Below are positions 3 to 6,937 of a stretch of 6,937 nucleotides of DNA, in pieces (the first letter of the stretch is position 1; each line of letters opens with the position of its first letter). The DNA lies in the NCBI GenBank assembly GCA_003695505.1, contig RFIY01000229.1:1-6937 (forward strand), in the 5' to 3' direction. A model generated the notes under the pieces. That model did not search any database, was not told the DNA's origin, and saw nothing but the letters and a program-made list of their open reading frames with translations. A program made the position numbers and the translations under genes. Origin of the DNA: J088 sp003695505 [NCBI: Candidatus Dadabacteria bacterium] (lineage in GTDB: Bacteria; J088).

Positions 3-437
3 CTGACGGGCGCGAGCAGCGCGGCGATCACGCGTGCCGCGCCATACAGCGTGACGGCGACGATCATCGATGACGAAGCCGACCAGGCGACGGACAACGC
101 CGTGACCGCAGTGGCAGCCACGACGACGGTTGCCGAGAATCCACCCGGCGTCGCCGCATTCGATATCTGGCTCTCCCGTGCCAACCTGACCGGCAACCCC
201 ATCACGGTCAACTTCTCGATCGCCGGCACGGCCACGGCGGGCAGCGACTTCATCGCTGCACCAACCGCGGCAACGATTGCCGCCGGGCAGCAGAGCGTTC
301 GCGTCACGATGGCGATCCTCGATGACACAGATCTCGATCCCGGCGAAACGGTCGGCCTGACGCTGACCTCTGCAGGGCACCCGGCGGTTTCCGTTGGTGT
401 CCCGGCGAGTGCGCTGGCGACGATCAATGATGACGAA
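3..437 (+). other. Calx-beta domains (one partial, one complete)
   Basis: The end of one Calx-beta domain (3-77, closing with TATIIDDE) is followed by a complete one (93-437, closing with ATINDDE). The complete copy shows the family hallmarks: the GTATAGSDF turn at 225-251, the DDTDLDPGE segment with the following alternating hydrophobic strand (about 330-370), and the terminal IxDDE. Calx-beta modules are calcium-binding beta-sandwiches known from Na/Ca exchangers and integrin beta-4, and they are common in large bacterial adhesins. More copies may lie upstream of the window. Confidence 0.85.
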
Positions 438-3400
438 GTTGCAAATGACGCGCCAGTATTGCTTTCGTATGCGTTGCTGCCGACGGCGATCGCAGAGGGC
501 ACCAGCGTCAGCTTCGCGGTCGCGGTGACCGCGAATGACGATTTCACGGATCCGATTACCTATACGATCGACTGTCTGGGCGACGGCTTCGTGACCGCGG
601 ATGACGTGATCGTGCAAGGTCCGCTGACCGGCACGACCGCGACGTGCAGCGGCCTGAGCCTGAATCAGGGCAGCGTCACCGTACGTCTGCAGGTGGACGA
701 TGGCTTCCTGACCTCGGCCGTCAGCACCGCAACACTGATTGTCCAGAATGTCGCGCCGAGCGTGACCCTTTCCGGACCGGCGACGGCAAACGAGGGCAGC
801 GGCAGCGTAACCCTGGTCGCGAGCGCAACGGATCCGTTCGATACGGGCCTGACCTATCGTTACGATTGCGACGGCAATGGCACCTACGAGACGGCAGGTA
901 CCACCGTGGTGACCTGTGCCTACGGGCCGGTGAACCAGGGGCCGTACAGCTTCGCGGTTCAGGTCAGTGATGATGTCGACGCCACCACCGCCGTTGCGAC
1001 CGTGATGCTGCAAAACGTGGCGCCGGTGCTCAGCGCGATCTATGCGACGCCGCAGACCGTATTCGAGTCGGCGACCGGCGCGACGTTCGCCGTGACGTTT
1101 GTTGCGACGGACCGGTTCGATACCTCGGTGACTTTGAACGTCGACTGCGATGGAAACGGCGCAGACGATCTCGTGACCACGACGACGATCTCGGGTGGGT
1201 CGGGCATCTGTACGATTACCGGAGATCAGCGGGATGTGGTTGTGATCGCCTGGCTTCAGGATGATGCAGCATCGTCCGCGACCGCGTGGACGACGCTGCG
1301 GGTGGACAACCGCAATCCGGTGATCACGTCGGTGACGGCGCCGACACCGGTCGCCGAATCGCGCGGCGGGCTGATTCAGGTGCAGATCAACGCGACCGAT
1401 CCGGTCGACGCGGCCGATCTGCAATACAGCTTCGATTGCGATGGCGATCTGACGTACGAGATCGGGCCACAGAGTACGCCATCGTACCTCTGCCCGTACA
1501 ACTGGAATGGTCCCTCGACGCAGACGATCCGAATCTATGTCGGCGACCAGGACGGCGGCTTTGCGGTCACGAGTGCGTTGATCCAGGTGCGGAACATCCT
1601 GCCGGTTGCGCCGTCGCTCAGCTTCCCGCTCAATGGCGCGTTCGTGTCGACGACGCAACCGACCCTTATCGCCAACAACGCAACCGATCCGGTCGATACC
1701 GGCCTGATCTATGAGTTCGCGCTTTACCGGAATGCTGCGCTGACCGACGTCGTCACCGATGTGACGCGGAGCCAGACGTCTCCGGACGTGACGACCTGGC
1801 AGGTCACGGAAATTGCGCTGACCGAAGGCGAAACGTACTGGTGGCGCGCACGGGCGACGGACGATACAGGATACGGCCCGTGGAGCCGCGCGTCGTCGTT
1901 TGTCGTTCGCAGTGTGACCGGACCGCCGAGCATCCCGCAGCCGTTGCTGCCGCTGGACGGCGCGGTGCTGACCGACGATACGCCACTGCTGATGATTCGC
2001 AATAGCGTCGATCCGGATGGCGACAACGTGTTCTACACCTGGCAACTCTGCGGCGACGTATCGTGCGGAACGATCCTTGCCGACGCGGCACGGCAGCCGG
2101 AAGGTGTGCCGGCGACGACCTGGCAGGTGCCGCGCACGCTGGCCGATGGGCAATATTTCTGGCGCGTCACGGCCGTCGACGAAACGGGACTGGGATCGAG
2201 CGACTGGAGCACCGTTGCGAGCTTCCGCGTCGATACGAGCGGCAGTGCGAACACGCCTCCGCCGGTTCCGGCGATCACGAGCCCTGCGGATGGCACCTCG
2301 GTGGCCTCCGGTACGGTTGCCGTGCTGGCGTCCAGCGTCGTCGATCCCGATGGCGATGCGGTCCGCTACGACTTCGAACTCGATGTCACGTCGACGTTCA
2401 ACAGTACGTCGCTGACGACCTTCACGGCCAGCGTCCCGGTTGCGAGCTTTGCCGGCGTCAGCGAGAACACCTGGTACTGGGTGCGCGTACGCAGCAGTGA
2501 CCCGGCCGGCAGCGGTTCGAGCCTTGGATTCAGCGCCGTCGTGCGCTTCCAGGTCAACGCCGTTACCGAACCACCATCGGCGCCACGCCTGGTTGCGCCT
2601 GTTTCGGATGCGACGGTATCGCAGCAGCCGATTTTGATCTGTGCTGGTGCCTCCGATCCAGAGGGTGGGGCGCTGGTGTACGACTTCGCCGTCTACACGG
2701 CCGCCGATCGTACCGGTGCGATCTACACTTCCGGTGATGTCGCCGAGTTCGGCGGTGGGGCGGACCACCTGGTCGCATCGGCCCTGCCAACCGGCAGCCC
2801 GCTCTGGTGGGACTGCGGCGTGCGGGACAACGAGGGATACCGCGTCCGCAGTACGGAGGTCTGGCGACTGAATGTCGACAGCACGGCCAATGGCGCACCC
2901 TCGGCGCCGCAACCCGTCACACCGGCACACGAACTGGAGACCATGGCAACGAGCATCACGCTGGTCGTGCGCAACGCGGTCGACGACGGCCCCGCGCCGC
3001 TGTCGTACTGGTTCGAGCTGGCGCCGAATGCGCAGTTCAGCAGTGCCTGGCGTTCGTCCGCGGTCGCCGAAGGCAGTGGCTTCACACGTATTTCGATGCC
3101 ATTCGCGCTGACGGCGGGAACGACCTGGTACTGGCGGGCGCGTGCCAGCGATGCGGCCAGCCCGGCGATCTATGGGCCATGGAGTTCCACGTTCGCGTTC
3201 ACGATCACCAGCCCGACGGCGAAGCCTGACAAGGACGGCGACGGCGTGCCGGACGACGTGGAATGCCCGTGGGGTATTTCCGTCTGCGACGATACCGACG
3301 ATGACGGCATCCCCGATTATGAAGATCCGGATGCGGACAATGACGGGACGCCGGATGGCAGCGAATGTCCGAATCCGGCCATGTGCCTCGACACGGATGC

Positions 3401-4595
3401 CGACGGCATCTACGATTTCCGCGAGCCGGATGATGTCGATACCGACCGCGATGGCATCGTCAACGAGCTCGACCCGGACGACGATGGCGATGGTATCGCG
3501 ACCAGCAGCGAGTGCCCAACCGGGGTCATGTGTGCGGACCGTGATGGTGATGGCATTCCGGACTTCATCGAGCCCGACAGCGACATCGACTTCGACGGCA
3601 GTGACCAGCCAGATGACCTGGACAGTGACGCGGATGGCCAGCCAGATGCGGTGGAGTGCCCGGTTGCGTTGCGGTGCGCAGACGCGGACAGCGACGGTAT
3701 CCCCGACTATCTCGAACCGGACAATCGTGACACCGACCGTGACGGCATTTTCGACGACCGCGACAATGACAGCGACAACGACGGCATCGCGGACGGAACG
3801 GAATGCGGCACGCCCGGATTCTGCAGCGACAGTGATGGTGACACGATCGGCGATGAGCGAGAGCCGTCGAACAGCGACACCGACCAGGATGGCGTCGCCG
3901 ATTCGTCAGATCCGGACAGCGACGGCGACGGGCTGACCGATCAGAGCGAATGCGGCGGTATCATCTGCGCGGATCAGGACGGTGATGGCATCTACGACTA
4001 TCTGGAACGCAACGATGCGGATACGGATGGCGATGGCCTGTCGAACCCGGTTGATCCAGATGACGATGGCGATGGTAGCGGTAGCCAACTGGAATGTCCA
4101 CTCCCGTTTGCGTGCCCCGATGGCGATGGCGACGGCCTGCCGGATTATCTGGAGTCGGACACCGCGGACAATGACGGCGATGGCATTCCGAACAGCGAGG
4201 ATGGCAACGACGACCTGCCCGAGAATCCGCAACCCAATCCGCAGGACGATGGCGGTACGGACAGCGACGGCGATGGCCTCCCGGATGCCGTGGAGTGCGA
4301 GACCTGGCCCGACAACTGCGTCGACACCGACGGCGATGGTACGCCCGATTATCTCGATCTCGACAGCGATAATGACGGCCTGACCGATGCCGAGGAAGGC
4401 CTCGATGATTCGGACGGTGACGGCATACCGGCGTTCCGCGACCCGTGGGGCGAGGATGGTAACGTAAAGGTCTACGGCGGCGGCGGTTTCTTTGCCTGTA
4501 GCGCCACGACGCGCGGCGCAGCGGACGTGAGCCCGCTGCTACTGCTCCTGCTGCCATGGTTGTTCCGGCAACGCCGGCGTCGACGGGAAAGCTGA
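3..4595 (+). CDS. Giant modular surface protein, 5'-truncated by window edge (Calx-beta / PKD-Ig / Fn3 / TSP3 repeats / C-terminal sorting tail)
   Basis: This is the C-terminal 1,530 codons of a longer gene. The frame is open to the left edge, and the residues before the first in-frame GTG (position 51) already read as the end of a Calx-beta domain, so the true start and signal peptide lie upstream. Domains in order: Calx-beta tail (3-77), Calx-beta (93-437), four PKD/Ig-like domains (438-1598), five Fn3-like domains (1599-3221), acidic TSP3-like calcium-binding repeats (3225-4445) and a Cys-containing tripartite C-terminal signal (4473-4592). I count 29 cysteines: 28 fall into within-domain pairs and the last is the lone Cys of the tail. 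The likely role, inferred from architecture, is a surface-anchored adhesin, receptor or stalk; no enzymatic domain is seen. The gene ends six bases before the OmpA-family gene and is probably co-transcribed with it. RTX nonapeptides, typical of type I-secreted adhesins, are absent. The ligand and exact function are unknown. Confidence 0.93.
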   Translation: MTGASSAAITRAAPYSVTATIIDDEADQATDNAVTAVAATTTVAENPPGVAAFDIWLSRANLTGNPITVNFSIAGTATAGSDFIAAPTAATIAAGQQSVRVTMAILDDTDLDPGETVGLTLTSAGHPAVSVGVPASALATINDDEVANDAPVLLSYALLPTAIAEGTSVSFAVAVTANDDFTDPITYTIDCLGDGFVTADDVIVQGPLTGTTATCSGLSLNQGSVTVRLQVDDGFLTSAVSTATLIVQNVAPSVTLSGPATANEGSGSVTLVASATDPFDTGLTYRYDCDGNGTYETAGTTVVTCAYGPVNQGPYSFAVQVSDDVDATTAVATVMLQNVAPVLSAIYATPQTVFESATGATFAVTFVATDRFDTSVTLNVDCDGNGADDLVTTTTISGGSGICTITGDQRDVVVIAWLQDDAASSATAWTTLRVDNRNPVITSVTAPTPVAESRGGLIQVQINATDPVDAADLQYSFDCDGDLTYEIGPQSTPSYLCPYNWNGPSTQTIRIYVGDQDGGFAVTSALIQVRNILPVAPSLSFPLNGAFVSTTQPTLIANNATDPVDTGLIYEFALYRNAALTDVVTDVTRSQTSPDVTTWQVTEIALTEGETYWWRARATDDTGYGPWSRASSFVVRSVTGPPSIPQPLLPLDGAVLTDDTPLLMIRNSVDPDGDNVFYTWQLCGDVSCGTILADAARQPEGVPATTWQVPRTLADGQYFWRVTAVDETGLGSSDWSTVASFRVDTSGSANTPPPVPAITSPADGTSVASGTVAVLASSVVDPDGDAVRYDFELDVTSTFNSTSLTTFTASVPVASFAGVSENTWYWVRVRSSDPAGSGSSLGFSAVVRFQVNAVTEPPSAPRLVAPVSDATVSQQPILICAGASDPEGGALVYDFAVYTAADRTGAIYTSGDVAEFGGGADHLVASALPTGSPLWWDCGVRDNEGYRVRSTEVWRLNVDSTANGAPSAPQPVTPAHELETMATSITLVVRNAVDDGPAPLSYWFELAPNAQFSSAWRSSAVAEGSGFTRISMPFALTAGTTWYWRARASDAASPAIYGPWSSTFAFTITSPTAKPDKDGDGVPDDVECPWGISVCDDTDDDGIPDYEDPDADNDGTPDGSECPNPAMCLDTDADGIYDFREPDDVDTDRDGIVNELDPDDDGDGIATSSECPTGVMCADRDGDGIPDFIEPDSDIDFDGSDQPDDLDSDADGQPDAVECPVALRCADADSDGIPDYLEPDNRDTDRDGIFDDRDNDSDNDGIADGTECGTPGFCSDSDGDTIGDEREPSNSDTDQDGVADSSDPDSDGDGLTDQSECGGIICADQDGDGIYDYLERNDADTDGDGLSNPVDPDDDGDGSGSQLECPLPFACPDGDGDGLPDYLESDTADNDGDGIPNSEDGNDDLPENPQPNPQDDGGTDSDGDGLPDAVECETWPDNCVDTDGDGTPDYLDLDSDNDGLTDAEEGLDDSDGDGIPAFRDPWGEDGNVKVYGGGGFFACSATTRGAADVSPLLLLLLPWLFRQRRRRRES
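438..1598 (+). other. Four PKD/Ig-like repeats, each with a Cys pair
   Basis: Four domains of about 89-105 residues are seen at roughly 438-752, 753-1019, 1020-1313 and 1314-1598. Three of the four open with [AN]-P-V/S; the first opens with a similar APVLLS a little later. Each has a central D-C-x-G-[DN]-like turn; three of the four read DCDGNG or DCDGD. This corresponds to the DFDGDG-type turn of PKD domains with Cys in place of the aromatic residue. A second Cys follows at 24, 16, 21 and 18 residues respectively (codons 573/645, 867/915, 1146/1209, 1437/1491). A [VL]QV-x-D-D-like strand and a closing QNV or RNI follow. A disulfide within each domain is inferred from the pairing. Such domains usually serve as rigid spacers or binding modules outside the cell. 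Confidence 0.7.
1599..3221 (+). other. Five fibronectin type III-like repeats
   Basis: Five units of about 105-110 residues lie at roughly 1599-1919, 1923-2249, 2253-2570, 2571-2891 and 2892-3221. Each begins with a Pro-rich linker (for example PPSIPQP, PPPVPAI, PPSAPRL, GAPSAPQ), then a P-x-x-x-x strand, a DP-[VDE]-[DG]-x-hydrophobic-x-Y strand and a Trp/Tyr-rich strand such as TYWWRARATD, YFWRVTAVD, WYWVRVRSSD, LWWDCGVRD or WYWRARASD. The last is the typical bacterial Fn3-like Y-x-W-R-[VA]-x-[AS]-x-D signature. Units two and four carry an extra Cys pair each (codons 2049/2064 and 2640/2814). The domains suggest an extended rod. Confidence 0.75.
3225..4445 (+). repeat. Asp-rich thrombospondin type 3-like calcium-binding super-repeats (8 units)
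   Basis: About 407 residues are dominated by D-x-D-x-D-G loops (DGDGIPDY, DTDRDGI, DPDDDGDG and the like), the calcium-binding pattern of thrombospondin type 3 repeats. A higher-order unit is visible: [E]-C-x(4-6)-C-x-D-x-D-x-D-G-I-x-D-[YF]-x-E-x-[DN], then D-[TR]-D-x-D-G-[IV], then a D-rich loop. The first Cys codons of the eight units are at 3264, 3366, 3513, 3657, 3804, 3951, 4095 and 4296, giving spacings of 34, 49, 48, 49, 49, 48 and 67 residues. At DNA level, tracts such as gatggcgatgg recur, but the repeats have diverged and are not near-identical. The likely role is a calcium-stiffened stalk next to the membrane anchor. Confidence 0.9.
4473..4592 (+). other. C-terminal Cys-containing tripartite sorting signal (MYXO-CTERM / JDVT-CTERM type)
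   Basis: The protein ends with a Gly run and Cys (GGGGFFACS; Cys codon 4497), a short spacer with an Asp (ATTRGAAD), a Leu-rich hydrophobic stretch (VSPLLLLLLPWLF, 4527-4565) and an Arg cluster (RQRRRRR, 4566-4586) just before the stop. This order of motif, membrane segment and basic end is that of protein-sorting tails processed by dedicated intramembrane proteases. The Cys-containing classes MYXO-CTERM (myxosortase) and JDVT-CTERM fit best: the Gly-run-Cys and downstream Asp suggest the JDVT type, while the poly-Leu and Arg end fit both. The rhombosortase-linked GlyGly-CTERM type is less likely because of the Cys. Family knowledge suggests cleavage near the Cys and possibly its lipidation; exact class is uncertain. 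Confidence 0.78.
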
Positions 4596-4601
4596 TTCGT
4601 C

Positions 4602-6650
4602 GTGAAAAAGAATTGTTGGGGCCTGCTCGTTGCAGCCGCCGGTCTGGCTTTCGCCGGAACGGTACACGCGAAATCGACCGATTTCGAGCTGTTCGATCCG
4701 CCGGGCGCGCCCGAAGCGAGCCTGATGACCGAGCGCGCGCGCACGATCCCGTCGTTTTTCACGGTTGGCGCCTACAACCAGTTTGAGCAGAACCCGGGCA
4801 CGTTTGCGCGTAACGGCCAGTTCGACAGCGATCTTGTCCTCTATCGCTGGCAGATGCGGGTGGTGGGAACGATTCGTCCGTTGCCATTTTTGCAGGCGGG
4901 CGTCGATGTCCCGTTCACGCTGCTGACCGACCTGCAGCGCAACCAGGGAATTCGCGAGGGCGCGCAGGCCGCGATGAACGACATGCTGTTTCGGGCGCGC
5001 ATGCACTTTGGCGACGTCGAGCGGGACTATGGCACATTCGCCTTTGGCGGTGCGGCATCCGTGGCCTTCCCGACAGGCAATGCCGACAAGCTGGCCGGCG
5101 TAGACAAGCGCTTTGCCGAACCATCCGTCCGGATGCTGATCGACTTTTATCGCGGTCCATGGCGGGCGGGGCTGAATCTGGGCATCAAGGAGCGAGAGCG
5201 GACAGAGCTGCCCCAGTATGGCCTGATCCTGGACGACCAGTTTTACATTCGCCTGTCCGCCGCACGGGAACTGGGGATTGGCGGCGACCTGCGCCCGATC
5301 GTGTTTGCAGATTATGCGGTACAAACCAAGCTGTTCGATGGCGACTTCTTCGGCAGTGCCCAGCACAATGCGCACGAACTGTTCGCCGGCGTCGAATTGC
5401 ACAAGCGCCGAATGACGTGGACGCCGGGGCTGGCGATGGGGCTGAGTCGCGCCTTCGGGGTGCCCACCTGGCGGATGGTGCTCGGGATGTTCTTTGGCGC
5501 GGCGCCGGAGCCGATCCGGCCGCATTACCTCGACCTGCTGGTTCAGTCGCCCGAACAGGAGCCGATTGCCGGGGCACTCGTGGTGCTGGATGATGCGACG
5601 GGTGCCGAGCCGGTGACGGCGCGAACAGCCCAAACAGGTCTCGCGCATTTCGATCCGGTCAAACCGCCGGCGGTCGCACGCATCGACCATCCGTACTGGC
5701 TGCCGGCGACCGCTTTTGCGAGCCAGGTGCCGGCAACGGTGACGGTCGCACTGCAGCCGCGCCCTGTGACGGTCGAGGTCCGCACGGTCGAACCGAACGG
5801 CGCTCCCGTGACCGTCGCCATCGTGCGTGCGGCCGACCAGGGCGTGGAGGCCCACGTCGATCAGGATGCGACGGCGCGGTTGAGCGTGGAGCCGGGCGCC
5901 ATCCAGCTCTCCGCTGCTGGCGCCGGATACCAGGCGGCGGCAACCACGGTCAACGTGCGGCCCGGGCAGGCTCAGGTGTTGACGCTTGTCCTCAGGCCAG
6001 TGCCGAAAGCGCCGCCAAAAGTGAGCGTGGAGATCGTCGATGAACGCACCGGCGAGCCGGTGCCCGCCGGGCAGGTGCGGGTGTTTGGTGCAGGTGATCA
6101 GTTGCTCGATGTTCAGCCGTTCCGGGACGGTGCCTGGTCGGGGCAGTTTCAGGCACCCGGTGCGGTCACATTCGAATTCGTCGCCGCGCGCTACTTTCCC
6201 GCGAAACTGAAGCTTGATCTGCAATGGAATGATGACCTGGCCGTGCGGGTCCAGCTCACATCGAAGGCCAGCCGTCGGATCATGATCACCGAGGAAGACA
6301 TCTTCATTGCGGACAAGGTCTATTTCCGGACGGGGTCGGCAGAGATCGATCAGCGGTCGCACGAGATCCTTGACGAGCTGGCGCAGGCGCTGATTGAAAA
6401 TCCGCAGATTCGCAAGGTTGAGATTGCCGGACACACCGACAGCGTTGGCCGCCACGCCGCGAACGTGCGGCTGTCGCAGGCGCGGGCGGCAGCGGTTCGG
6501 AAGTACCTGATCGACAAGGGCGTGGAGCCCGAGCGGCTTGTCGCGCGCGGTTACGGGCCGGATCGCCCGGTCGATACCAATGATACACCTGAAGGTCGCG
6601 CAAACAACCGTCGCGTCGAATTCGTCATCCAGGAGATTGCACAACCATGA
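4602..6650 (+). CDS. OmpA-family outer-membrane beta-barrel protein with internal Ig-like segments
   Basis: The 682-residue product starts with a GTG (MKKNCWGLL) and a clear Sec signal peptide, residues 1-23, with an AxA-like cut after VHA. The next in-frame Met (42) would lose the signal, so the GTG is preferred despite only a weak gggaaa (4585-4590) upstream. Residues about 50-300 have alternating, aromatic-rich strands ending in turns (FLQAGVDVPF, FAFGGAASVAF, RAGLNLGI, LFAGVELHK), consistent with an outer-membrane beta-barrel. Residues about 307-558 hold two to three beta-sandwich segments of carboxypeptidase-regulatory/Ig type (IAGALVVLDD; GEPVPAGQVRVFG). Residues 560-680 form an OmpA-like domain: VYFRTGSAEI, then GHTDSVG with Asp613, then LSQARA with Arg628, and NNRRVEF near the end. 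Asp613 and Arg628 match in motif and 15-residue spacing the peptidoglycan-contact pair of OmpA homologues. The mature part shows no cysteine. It lies six bases after the giant surface-protein gene, which suggests one operon. Proposed role: an outer-membrane anchor or partner for that protein (inference). Confidence 0.95.
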   Translation: MKKNCWGLLVAAAGLAFAGTVHAKSTDFELFDPPGAPEASLMTERARTIPSFFTVGAYNQFEQNPGTFARNGQFDSDLVLYRWQMRVVGTIRPLPFLQAGVDVPFTLLTDLQRNQGIREGAQAAMNDMLFRARMHFGDVERDYGTFAFGGAASVAFPTGNADKLAGVDKRFAEPSVRMLIDFYRGPWRAGLNLGIKERERTELPQYGLILDDQFYIRLSAARELGIGGDLRPIVFADYAVQTKLFDGDFFGSAQHNAHELFAGVELHKRRMTWTPGLAMGLSRAFGVPTWRMVLGMFFGAAPEPIRPHYLDLLVQSPEQEPIAGALVVLDDATGAEPVTARTAQTGLAHFDPVKPPAVARIDHPYWLPATAFASQVPATVTVALQPRPVTVEVRTVEPNGAPVTVAIVRAADQGVEAHVDQDATARLSVEPGAIQLSAAGAGYQAAATTVNVRPGQAQVLTLVLRPVPKAPPKVSVEIVDERTGEPVPAGQVRVFGAGDQLLDVQPFRDGAWSGQFQAPGAVTFEFVAARYFPAKLKLDLQWNDDLAVRVQLTSKASRRIMITEEDIFIADKVYFRTGSAEIDQRSHEILDELAQALIENPQIRKVEIAGHTDSVGRHAANVRLSQARAAAVRKYLIDKGVEPERLVARGYGPDRPVDTNDTPEGRANNRRVEFVIQEIAQP

Positions 6651-6704: not shown

Positions 6705-6937
6705 ATGAAGCTCCGTTCCGGGAACGGGCTCGCGGCGGCGAGCTTTCTGCTTTTTGCGTTTCTGCTGGTCTTCACCGGCGGCACGGCACCCGTGCGCGCC
6801 GAAAGCACCGACTTTGACCGCCTCGAACCGGTACCATGGGCCCAGCGTGGCATCCAGATGGAGGATGTCGATCCGCTGCCGGCGCTGTTCTCGGTCGGCG
6901 GCTGGACACAAATCGAAAAGTCGCCGGTCGTTCTGTC
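6705..6937 (+). CDS. Secreted protein, 3'-truncated by window edge; N-terminal paralogue of the upstream OmpA-family protein
   Basis: Seventy-seven codons from an ATG run open off the right edge. The product starts MKLRSGNGL, then a long hydrophobic core (ASFLLFAFLLVF, residues 12-23) and a signal-peptidase site after residue 32 (VRA before ES). The mature start STDFDRLEP and the later PALFSVGGWTQIEKSP align without a gap to STDFELFDP and PSFFTVGAYNQFEQNP of the protein encoded at 4602-6650. I count 13 identities in 41 positions, many other positions are conservative, and the two blocks are spaced identically. It is therefore most likely a second beta-barrel/OmpA-type protein, although the barrel and any OmpA domain lie outside the window. 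It follows the previous gene by 54 bases on the same strand, probably in the same operon. The ATG was chosen because it gives an intact signal peptide. Confidence 0.85.
   Translation, partial: MKLRSGNGLAAASFLLFAFLLVFTGGTAPVRAESTDFDRLEPVPWAQRGIQMEDVDPLPALFSVGGWTQIEKSPVVL

Follow-up and report, generated by a model that had tools for sequence, protein, structure and literature searches.

A TraB-type barrel protein encoded beside a Cys-tailed giant surface protein in a Candidatus Dadabacteria genome, and the recurrence of this pairing in other bacterial families

Introduction

A gene for a giant repeat protein with a C-terminal Cys tail, followed at once by a gene for a signal-peptide barrel protein with an OmpA domain, raises the question of whether the two products form a surface system built like TraA and TraB of Myxococcus xanthus and, if so, what such a system would do. 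This arrangement occupies the window, by which we mean the whole 6,937-nucleotide stretch of DNA analysed here; it is an entire contig (G000:C298) of a 2.83 Mb genome that is split into 395 contigs and is 84.5% complete. An initial annotation, made from the letters of the window, had read the pair as a possible TraAB-like two-component system that had gone unrecognised and might serve cell contact, adhesion or exchange. Here we examine the tail, the barrel and their pairing across 290 genomes, and weigh that reading against three others.

Results

Layout of the window

The two-gene layout proposed in the initial annotation was confirmed (Table 1): gene 1, which carries the Cys tail, and gene 2, which carries the barrel and OmpA domains, are separated by exactly six bases. 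The frame of gene 1 extends past the beginning of the contig, so its signal peptide lies out of view. A third gene, absent from the initial annotation, begins 54 bases past gene 2 and runs off the other end; the 77 residues that remain of it match gene 2 at its start, and barrel genes thus stand in tandem at this locus.

Table 1. Positions of genes and domains in the window
Feature	Positions	Strand	Details
Gene 1, giant repeat surface protein, 1530 aa seen	3..4595	+	5' end cut by contig edge
Calx-beta-like domain of gene 1	117..434	+	Pfam PF03160, residues 39-144, E 1.2e-5, 25.8 bits (cut-off 27)
TSP3-like stalk of gene 1, 23 D.D.DG motifs	3228..4424	+	Motif count; TSP3_bac E 0.001, under cut-off, C-terminal piece
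Very probable Cys sorting tail of gene 1 (GGGGFFACSATTRGAADVSPLLLLLLPWLFRQRRRRRES)	4476..4592	+	Cys 4497-4499, hydrophobic 4527-4565, Arg cluster 4566-4586
Gene 2, TraB-type barrel protein, 682 aa, GTG start	4602..6650	+	Six bases 3' of gene 1
Probable signal peptide of gene 2 (MKKNCWGLLVAAAGLAFAGTVHA)	4602..4670	+	By eye
TraB-type barrel domain of gene 2	4677..5498	+	Profile A1 (window is a seed of A1), TraB profile, TraB barrel alone
CarboxypepD_reg-like domain of gene 2, best of three stretches	5769..5993	+	PF13620 E 2.7e-12
OmpA domain of gene 2	6321..6611	+	PF00691 E 1.7e-25
Gene 3, start of a tandem barrel-gene copy	6705..6935	+	34% over 58 aa with gene 2, E 5e-8

The ectodomain of gene 1 had been described as a combination of Calx-beta, PKD, Fn3 and TSP3 domains. 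The Calx-beta and TSP3-like parts of that description stand, the former through a match just under its cut-off, whereas neither PKD nor Fn3 was listed for gene 1 by Pfam at E ≤ 1. Pfam also returned Ig-like matches in gene 1, all of them below their cut-offs. Judging from its motifs, the TSP3-like stalk probably binds calcium.

A Cys tail with a candidate protease in the same genome

The tail of gene 1 consists of a Cys, then a 13-residue hydrophobic stretch, then an Arg cluster. Its assignment to the MYXO/JDVT-CTERM type holds for the layout but not for the model score: on the MYXO-CTERM model (TIGR03901) the tail reached 15.8 bits, below the cut-off of 20. No JDVT-CTERM model appeared in the gene 1 match list, which came from a library that may or may not include one. 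Using a profile of 17 tails, those of gene 1 and C131 included (A2), together with inspection by eye, we found tails of the same type on at least four other proteins of the genome: C131, C125 (1796 aa), C389 (E 2e-4) and, weakly, C171 (E 0.018). A Gly-rich stretch, a Cys, a hydrophobic segment and a basic end are present in each of the five. One more candidate, C377 (A2 E 0.003), was dropped when its match proved not to lie at the protein end. C125 (L249:2988-8378) carries FG-GAP and TSP3 repeats and C131 (L057) carries TSP3-like motifs; C389 and C171 correspond to L250 and L252.

The sole CPBP-family match in this 84.5% complete genome is a 241-aa protein of the myxosortase type (G000:C334, L155:1474-2199, minus strand). 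It scored 121.6 bits on MrtP (cut-off 250), 97.7 on MrtC and 63.7 on MrtJ. The only cut-off that it reached was that of Mrt_core (NF040914, cut-off 100), and this in the genome search only (101.1 bits, against 98.5 in the protein scan). By eye, an adjoining protein resembles a radical-SAM enzyme. The genome also encodes a type II GspD (473 bits). The gene 1 tail thus combines the hallmarks of Cys-type sorting tails in general (a Cys, a hydrophobic stretch and a basic end) with a candidate protease encoded by the same genome, the processing itself being a prediction. Because the genome holds four more Cys-tailed proteins and its sole CPBP protease is of the myxosortase type, we take the tail to be real; it is very probably a sorting signal of this genome.

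The barrel of gene 2 and the barrel of TraB

The signal peptide (by eye), the N-terminal barrel (by homology) and the OmpA domain that the initial annotation saw in gene 2 were all borne out. Searches with the whole of gene 2 were swamped by OmpA domains, and we therefore built a barrel-only profile (A1) from the window barrel aligned with four others, five seeds in all. Several comparisons link this barrel to TraB. Gene 2 without its OmpA domain matched the TraB profile at E 2.3e-7, and the barrel of a genuine TraB, used alone as the query against open frames of the fetched loci, found gene 2 at E 3.7e-9. A leave-out profile of 45 barrels, from which both the window and the genuine TraB had been removed, scored TraB at 197.3 bits and the window at 106.5 bits; the best of 200 shuffles scored 4.7 bits, which rules out a chance origin of the match. 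This profile serves as a check and is not fully independent, because its 45 barrels were gathered with A1, to which the window contributed one of the five seeds. Over its full length, gene 2 scored 123.3 bits on the TraB model (NF033763), below the cut-off of 700, and the genuine TraB (L121) scored 998.1. On the evidence of these profiles, the barrels of gene 2 and TraB are homologous. The barrel fold is assigned through this homology, because the predicted structure of the window barrel alone was of low confidence (mean pLDDT 30.7).

No relatives of gene 2 were found in viral_contigs or genome_contigs, and a plasmid tblastn search with a related barrel listed ten rows, all limited to residues 265-436. 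Profile A1 detected no second TraB-type barrel in the genome, the gene 3 fragment being too short for it, and among the five Cys-tailed proteins a barrel gene was seen beside gene 1 only. The genome also encodes the large OmpA proteins C16 (L053) and C282 (L055), whose similarity to gene 2 begins at about its residue 366 or 394; neither matched a TraB-type barrel or had a Cys-tailed gene next to it.

Recurrent pairing and fusion of TraB-type barrels with Cys-tailed proteins

Across 290 genomes, A1 gave 58 matches at E ≤ 1e-3 among the best 8 candidates per genome; G028 reached eight, and genomes rich in barrel genes, as it is, may hold more. Neighbourhoods were examined for every match listed with E ≤ 1e-12, together with some weaker ones. 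As a positive control, the survey recovered a genuine TraA/TraB pair (L121 in G028; 1125.7 and 998.1 bits, both above the NCBIfam cut-offs), from which we infer that G028 is myxobacterial.

Our counts refer to the 57 barrels that reached 40 bits across the 290 genomes, again from the best 8 candidates per genome. A Cys-tailed partner accompanied 21 of them, 8 directly upstream, 10 fused in frame and 3 directly downstream, and 36 had no adjacent Cys-tailed gene, some of these lying at a contig end; with the seeds of A1 left out, a partner was present for 18 of 52. None of the 33 OmpA-domain genes of the same loci that scored below 40 bits for the barrel had an adjacent Cys-tailed gene, a control set that includes two genes with a weak barrel match (L059 and L152). 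The difference was significant by Fisher's test for all barrels (21/57 vs 0/33, p 1.3e-5) and without the five seeds (18/52 vs 0/33, p 3.5e-5), in comparisons where fusion was scored for the barrels and not for the 33 controls and where neighbour windows differed slightly between scripts. Because fusion was unscored in the controls, the fairer comparison is that of adjacent genes only, without seeds (10/44 vs 0/33, p 0.0023). Among 467 other genes, the script called a Cys tail in six, two of which are downstream partners of barrels.

Pairs were present in 14 of the 25 barrel-bearing genomes and, by hand tally, in 13 families including that of the window, that is, in 12 others. G033 and G178 belong to one small phylum, and the phylum search around G178 comprised five genomes; family, class and phylum searches around the window covered its own genome only. 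The YchF of this genome shared at most 61% identity with its best 80 matches, which came from Gammaproteobacteria, Deltaproteobacteria-type and other records, so the host belongs to a distant lineage. The initial annotation had asked whether the barrel gene always follows a Cys-tailed gene, and a constant order of this kind is not supported: the tailed protein is upstream or fused for 18 of the 57 barrels and the order is reversed for three more. Judged by the refuting conditions that the annotation set, the outcome is mixed: 36 of the 57 barrels lack such a neighbour, some of them through lying at a contig end, and at least one pair is present in 14 of the 25 genomes. The reverse order, a barrel gene followed directly by a Cys-tailed gene, was seen at L061, L073, L137 and L268. 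One more downstream pair, in G292, came from a separate search and stands outside the 57-barrel counts.

The ten fusions are spread over nine genomes, with two in G028 and one each in G033, G178, G269, G127, G264, G230, G288 and G069; G127 and G264 are of the same genus. In every one, the reading frame continues unbroken from a Cys tail into a signal-like segment and then into the barrel. The G033 fusion, for example, is a 3336-residue frame that runs from TSP3 repeats through a Cys tail and a new signal-like segment to a barrel and an OmpA domain. An open frame of 8019 aa in G288 (C369, L133) likewise has a Cys tail and then a TraB-type barrel. L127 and L128 were counted as fusions by eye, their tails being visible even though the script printed another stretch, and L125, called a fusion by the script, was removed by eye as a read-through of the wrong frame. 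The partner ectodomains vary by locus: the four partner proteins scanned in other genomes carried DUF2341 with TSP3, DUF11, TSP3, or FG-GAP. The OmpA domain also varies, and went undetected by single-sequence search in 14 of 52 barrel ORFs, partly owing to broken frames; these include the paired L117, L127, L128, L129, L144 and L150, and not every fusion retains the domain. The wall anchor may therefore not be universal.

Could the pair consist of unrelated envelope proteins whose genes happen to lie in one operon, with no more behind the pairing than a general clustering of envelope genes? The 36 unpaired barrels would suit such an explanation, as would the scatter of the pair label on the barrel tree, where it requires 14 changes against a shuffled mean of 14.9; pairing therefore occurs across the family and not in a single clade, and its distribution does not match the tree. 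Against this explanation, an adjacent tailed gene was present for 0 of 33 other OmpA genes, tails occur in at most 6 of the 467 other genes, and there are ten in-frame fusions. We regard this explanation as improbable. The pairing of TraB-type barrels with Cys-tailed proteins is enriched and recurrent, and often takes the form of a single fused gene.

Myxosortase and type II secretion in barrel-bearing genomes

We compared 56 genomes, of which 24 were barrel-bearing (23 of the 25 barrel genomes, G097 and G276 being left out, plus G211, whose barrel match is weaker), the other 32 being low-numbered genomes without an A1 match. Counting genomes individually and ignoring kinship, an Mrt_core match of at least 60 bits, a line drawn after the scores were seen, was present in 16/24 barrel-bearing genomes vs 3/32 without a barrel. 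Above the curated cut-off, and on the same way of counting, the figures were 10/24 vs 2/32 for Mrt_core and 23/24 vs 10/32 for GspD. Five of the 14 pair genomes had no Mrt_core match of at least 60 bits: G264 (86% complete), G189 (80%), and G033, G178 and G230. Because these last three are 95% or more complete, another enzyme may act in pair genomes of this kind.

The near-universal GspD bears on a second alternative, in which the barrel is not an anchor but a dedicated outer-membrane factor for the export or display of its Cys-tailed partner. Tight gene order and fusions would suit secretion of a partner. Searched against solved sequences, the barrel profile listed five at E ≤ 1. Four of them are FapF, a secretion barrel of the outer membrane, with a weak best match (E 0.022); the fifth is not an outer-membrane barrel, and the FapF matches keep a role in export in play. 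Yet nearly all barrel-bearing genomes already possess a type II secretin, and the OmpA domain suggests anchoring. We therefore consider an export factor unlikely, if the strongest in claim of the alternatives to an anchoring barrel.

Position of the window barrel relative to TraB

In the best tree of 47 barrels, TraB and MXAN_5598-like barrels fell into a seven-row set (97/93), and the window barrel lay outside it on a long branch. AU tests did not reject holding the window with the seven-row set (p-AU 0.053) or with TraB alone (p-AU 0.115). For gene 1, no TraA model (NF033759) was listed at E ≤ 10; since its 5' end is missing, an N-terminal TraA domain could be hidden.

These results bear on whether the pair carries out true outer-membrane exchange (OME), in which homotypic cell contact would lead to membrane fusion as with TraAB. 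Such a function could be argued from the shared two-gene architecture, the homologous barrel and the unrejected placement inside the TraB clade. Against it, gene 1, as far as it is seen, has no listed TraA family and the best tree sets the window barrel outside that clade; moreover, OME in M. xanthus also requires motility and a specific recognition domain (PMC12045341). The window pair does not indicate membrane exchange, and the chance that it performs it appears very slight.

Discussion

Our results support a model in which the window pair consists of an adhesin, anchored by its lipid, that rests on a barrel bound to the cell wall, that is, the TraAB architecture with another ectodomain, and we put the probability of this reading at roughly 60%. 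It builds on what we observed directly, namely the pairing, the barrel homology, the protease and GspD of the genome, and its other tailed proteins. The gene 1 product would be exported by Sec, its N-terminus being out of view, and its tail would retain it in the inner membrane, where the Cys would be lipidated. The myxosortase-type protease would then cut off the helix of the tail and the type II system would carry the protein to the cell surface, with the lipid as its anchor there; these export and lipid-anchoring steps are borrowed from the M. xanthus model. Gene 2 would form an outer-membrane barrel whose OmpA domain, which is clearly present, is predicted to hold peptidoglycan. From the TraB homology, the recurrent pairing and the fusions, we propose that the barrel takes the base of gene 1 and so tethers it to the cell wall. 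With its TSP3-like, probably calcium-binding ectodomain, the complex would most likely mediate cell-cell or cell-surface adhesion, the role that analogy with TraAB also suggests. In the fused forms, myxosortase cutting at the internal tail would part the two halves.

The TraAB-like two-component reading of the initial annotation therefore survives in its structural part, through barrel homology, enriched pairing in 12 other families and fusions, and not in its suggestion of exchange, to which nothing in the data points. Its view of the system as unrecognised holds in part as well. A search of the open-access literature, by title and the start of the abstract, located no pairs of a TraB-type barrel with a Cys-sorted protein outside the myxobacteria; an earlier notice is possible, as that literature did not include an in silico study of myxosortases to which PMC11980579 refers. 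The fused form in Myxococcus is prior art, since PMC11980579 presents MXAN_5598 alongside a comparison with TraAB.

One broader implication, which we put forward tentatively and at slightly less than even odds, is that myxobacterial TraAB is one specialised branch of an older and wider platform, in which a TraB-type barrel docks a myxosortase-sorted surface protein. Many lineages would have swapped ectodomains (Calx-beta/Ig/TSP3, FG-GAP, DUF11, DUF2341) while keeping tail and barrel, and would repeatedly have fused both into one gene with a product cut at the tail. A broad barrel family found beside or fused to Cys-sorted proteins makes the docking of sorted adhesins a likely general role for the barrel, and the placement of TraB within this family suggests an origin for OME. 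In practice, the pairing of barrel and Cys tail offers a criterion by which uncultured bacteria can be searched for surface-contact systems not yet described.

Among known systems, PdsO of the Proteobacterial dedicated sortase system also joins a surface-sorted protein to an OmpA-type companion, with a different sorting enzyme. Gene 2 matched PdsO over residues 550-673 only, its OmpA end, with 84.7 of the 152.2 bits required. The likeness to myxosortase systems (MrtX/MrtC/MrtP/MrtJ with MYXO-CTERM/JDVT-CTERM targets) lies in at least five Cys-tailed proteins and a protease of borderline Mrt_core score (101.1 bits in the genome search, 98.5 in the protein scan) in one genome; the genome departs from them in a gene 1 tail under the MYXO-CTERM cut-off and in a protease that scores best on MrtP without reaching the cut-off there.

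The closest comparison is with TraA and TraB of M. xanthus. According to PMC12045341, the two proteins occur 1:1 at contacts and adhesion requires both; TraB is a predicted barrel with TSP3 repeats joining it to the OmpA domain, and when that domain is missing, adhesion persists whereas exchange is lost. The M. xanthus genes overlap by four bases (PMC3325183). The window shares with them a Cys-tailed surface protein followed by a signal-peptide barrel protein with an OmpA domain, a homologous barrel and abutting genes. Unlike TraA, gene 1 has a giant Calx-beta/Ig/TSP3-like ectodomain and no listed TraA family; unlike TraB, gene 2 has CarboxypepD_reg, not TSP3, between barrel and OmpA, and falls well short of the family score. 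The window pair probably works like TraAB but cannot be filed as TraAB, since the TraA and TraB cut-offs both failed.

MXAN_5598 of M. xanthus completes the comparison. As described in PMC11980579, it combines an adhesin, an internal MYXO-CTERM, a barrel and an OmpA domain in one protein, is compared with TraA plus TraB, and is proposed by that myxosortase paper to be processed at the internal tag. A protein of this layout is present in G028 (L070). MXAN_5598 is a single fused myxobacterial protein, whereas the window, in a distant lineage, carries the same parts in the same order as two genes.
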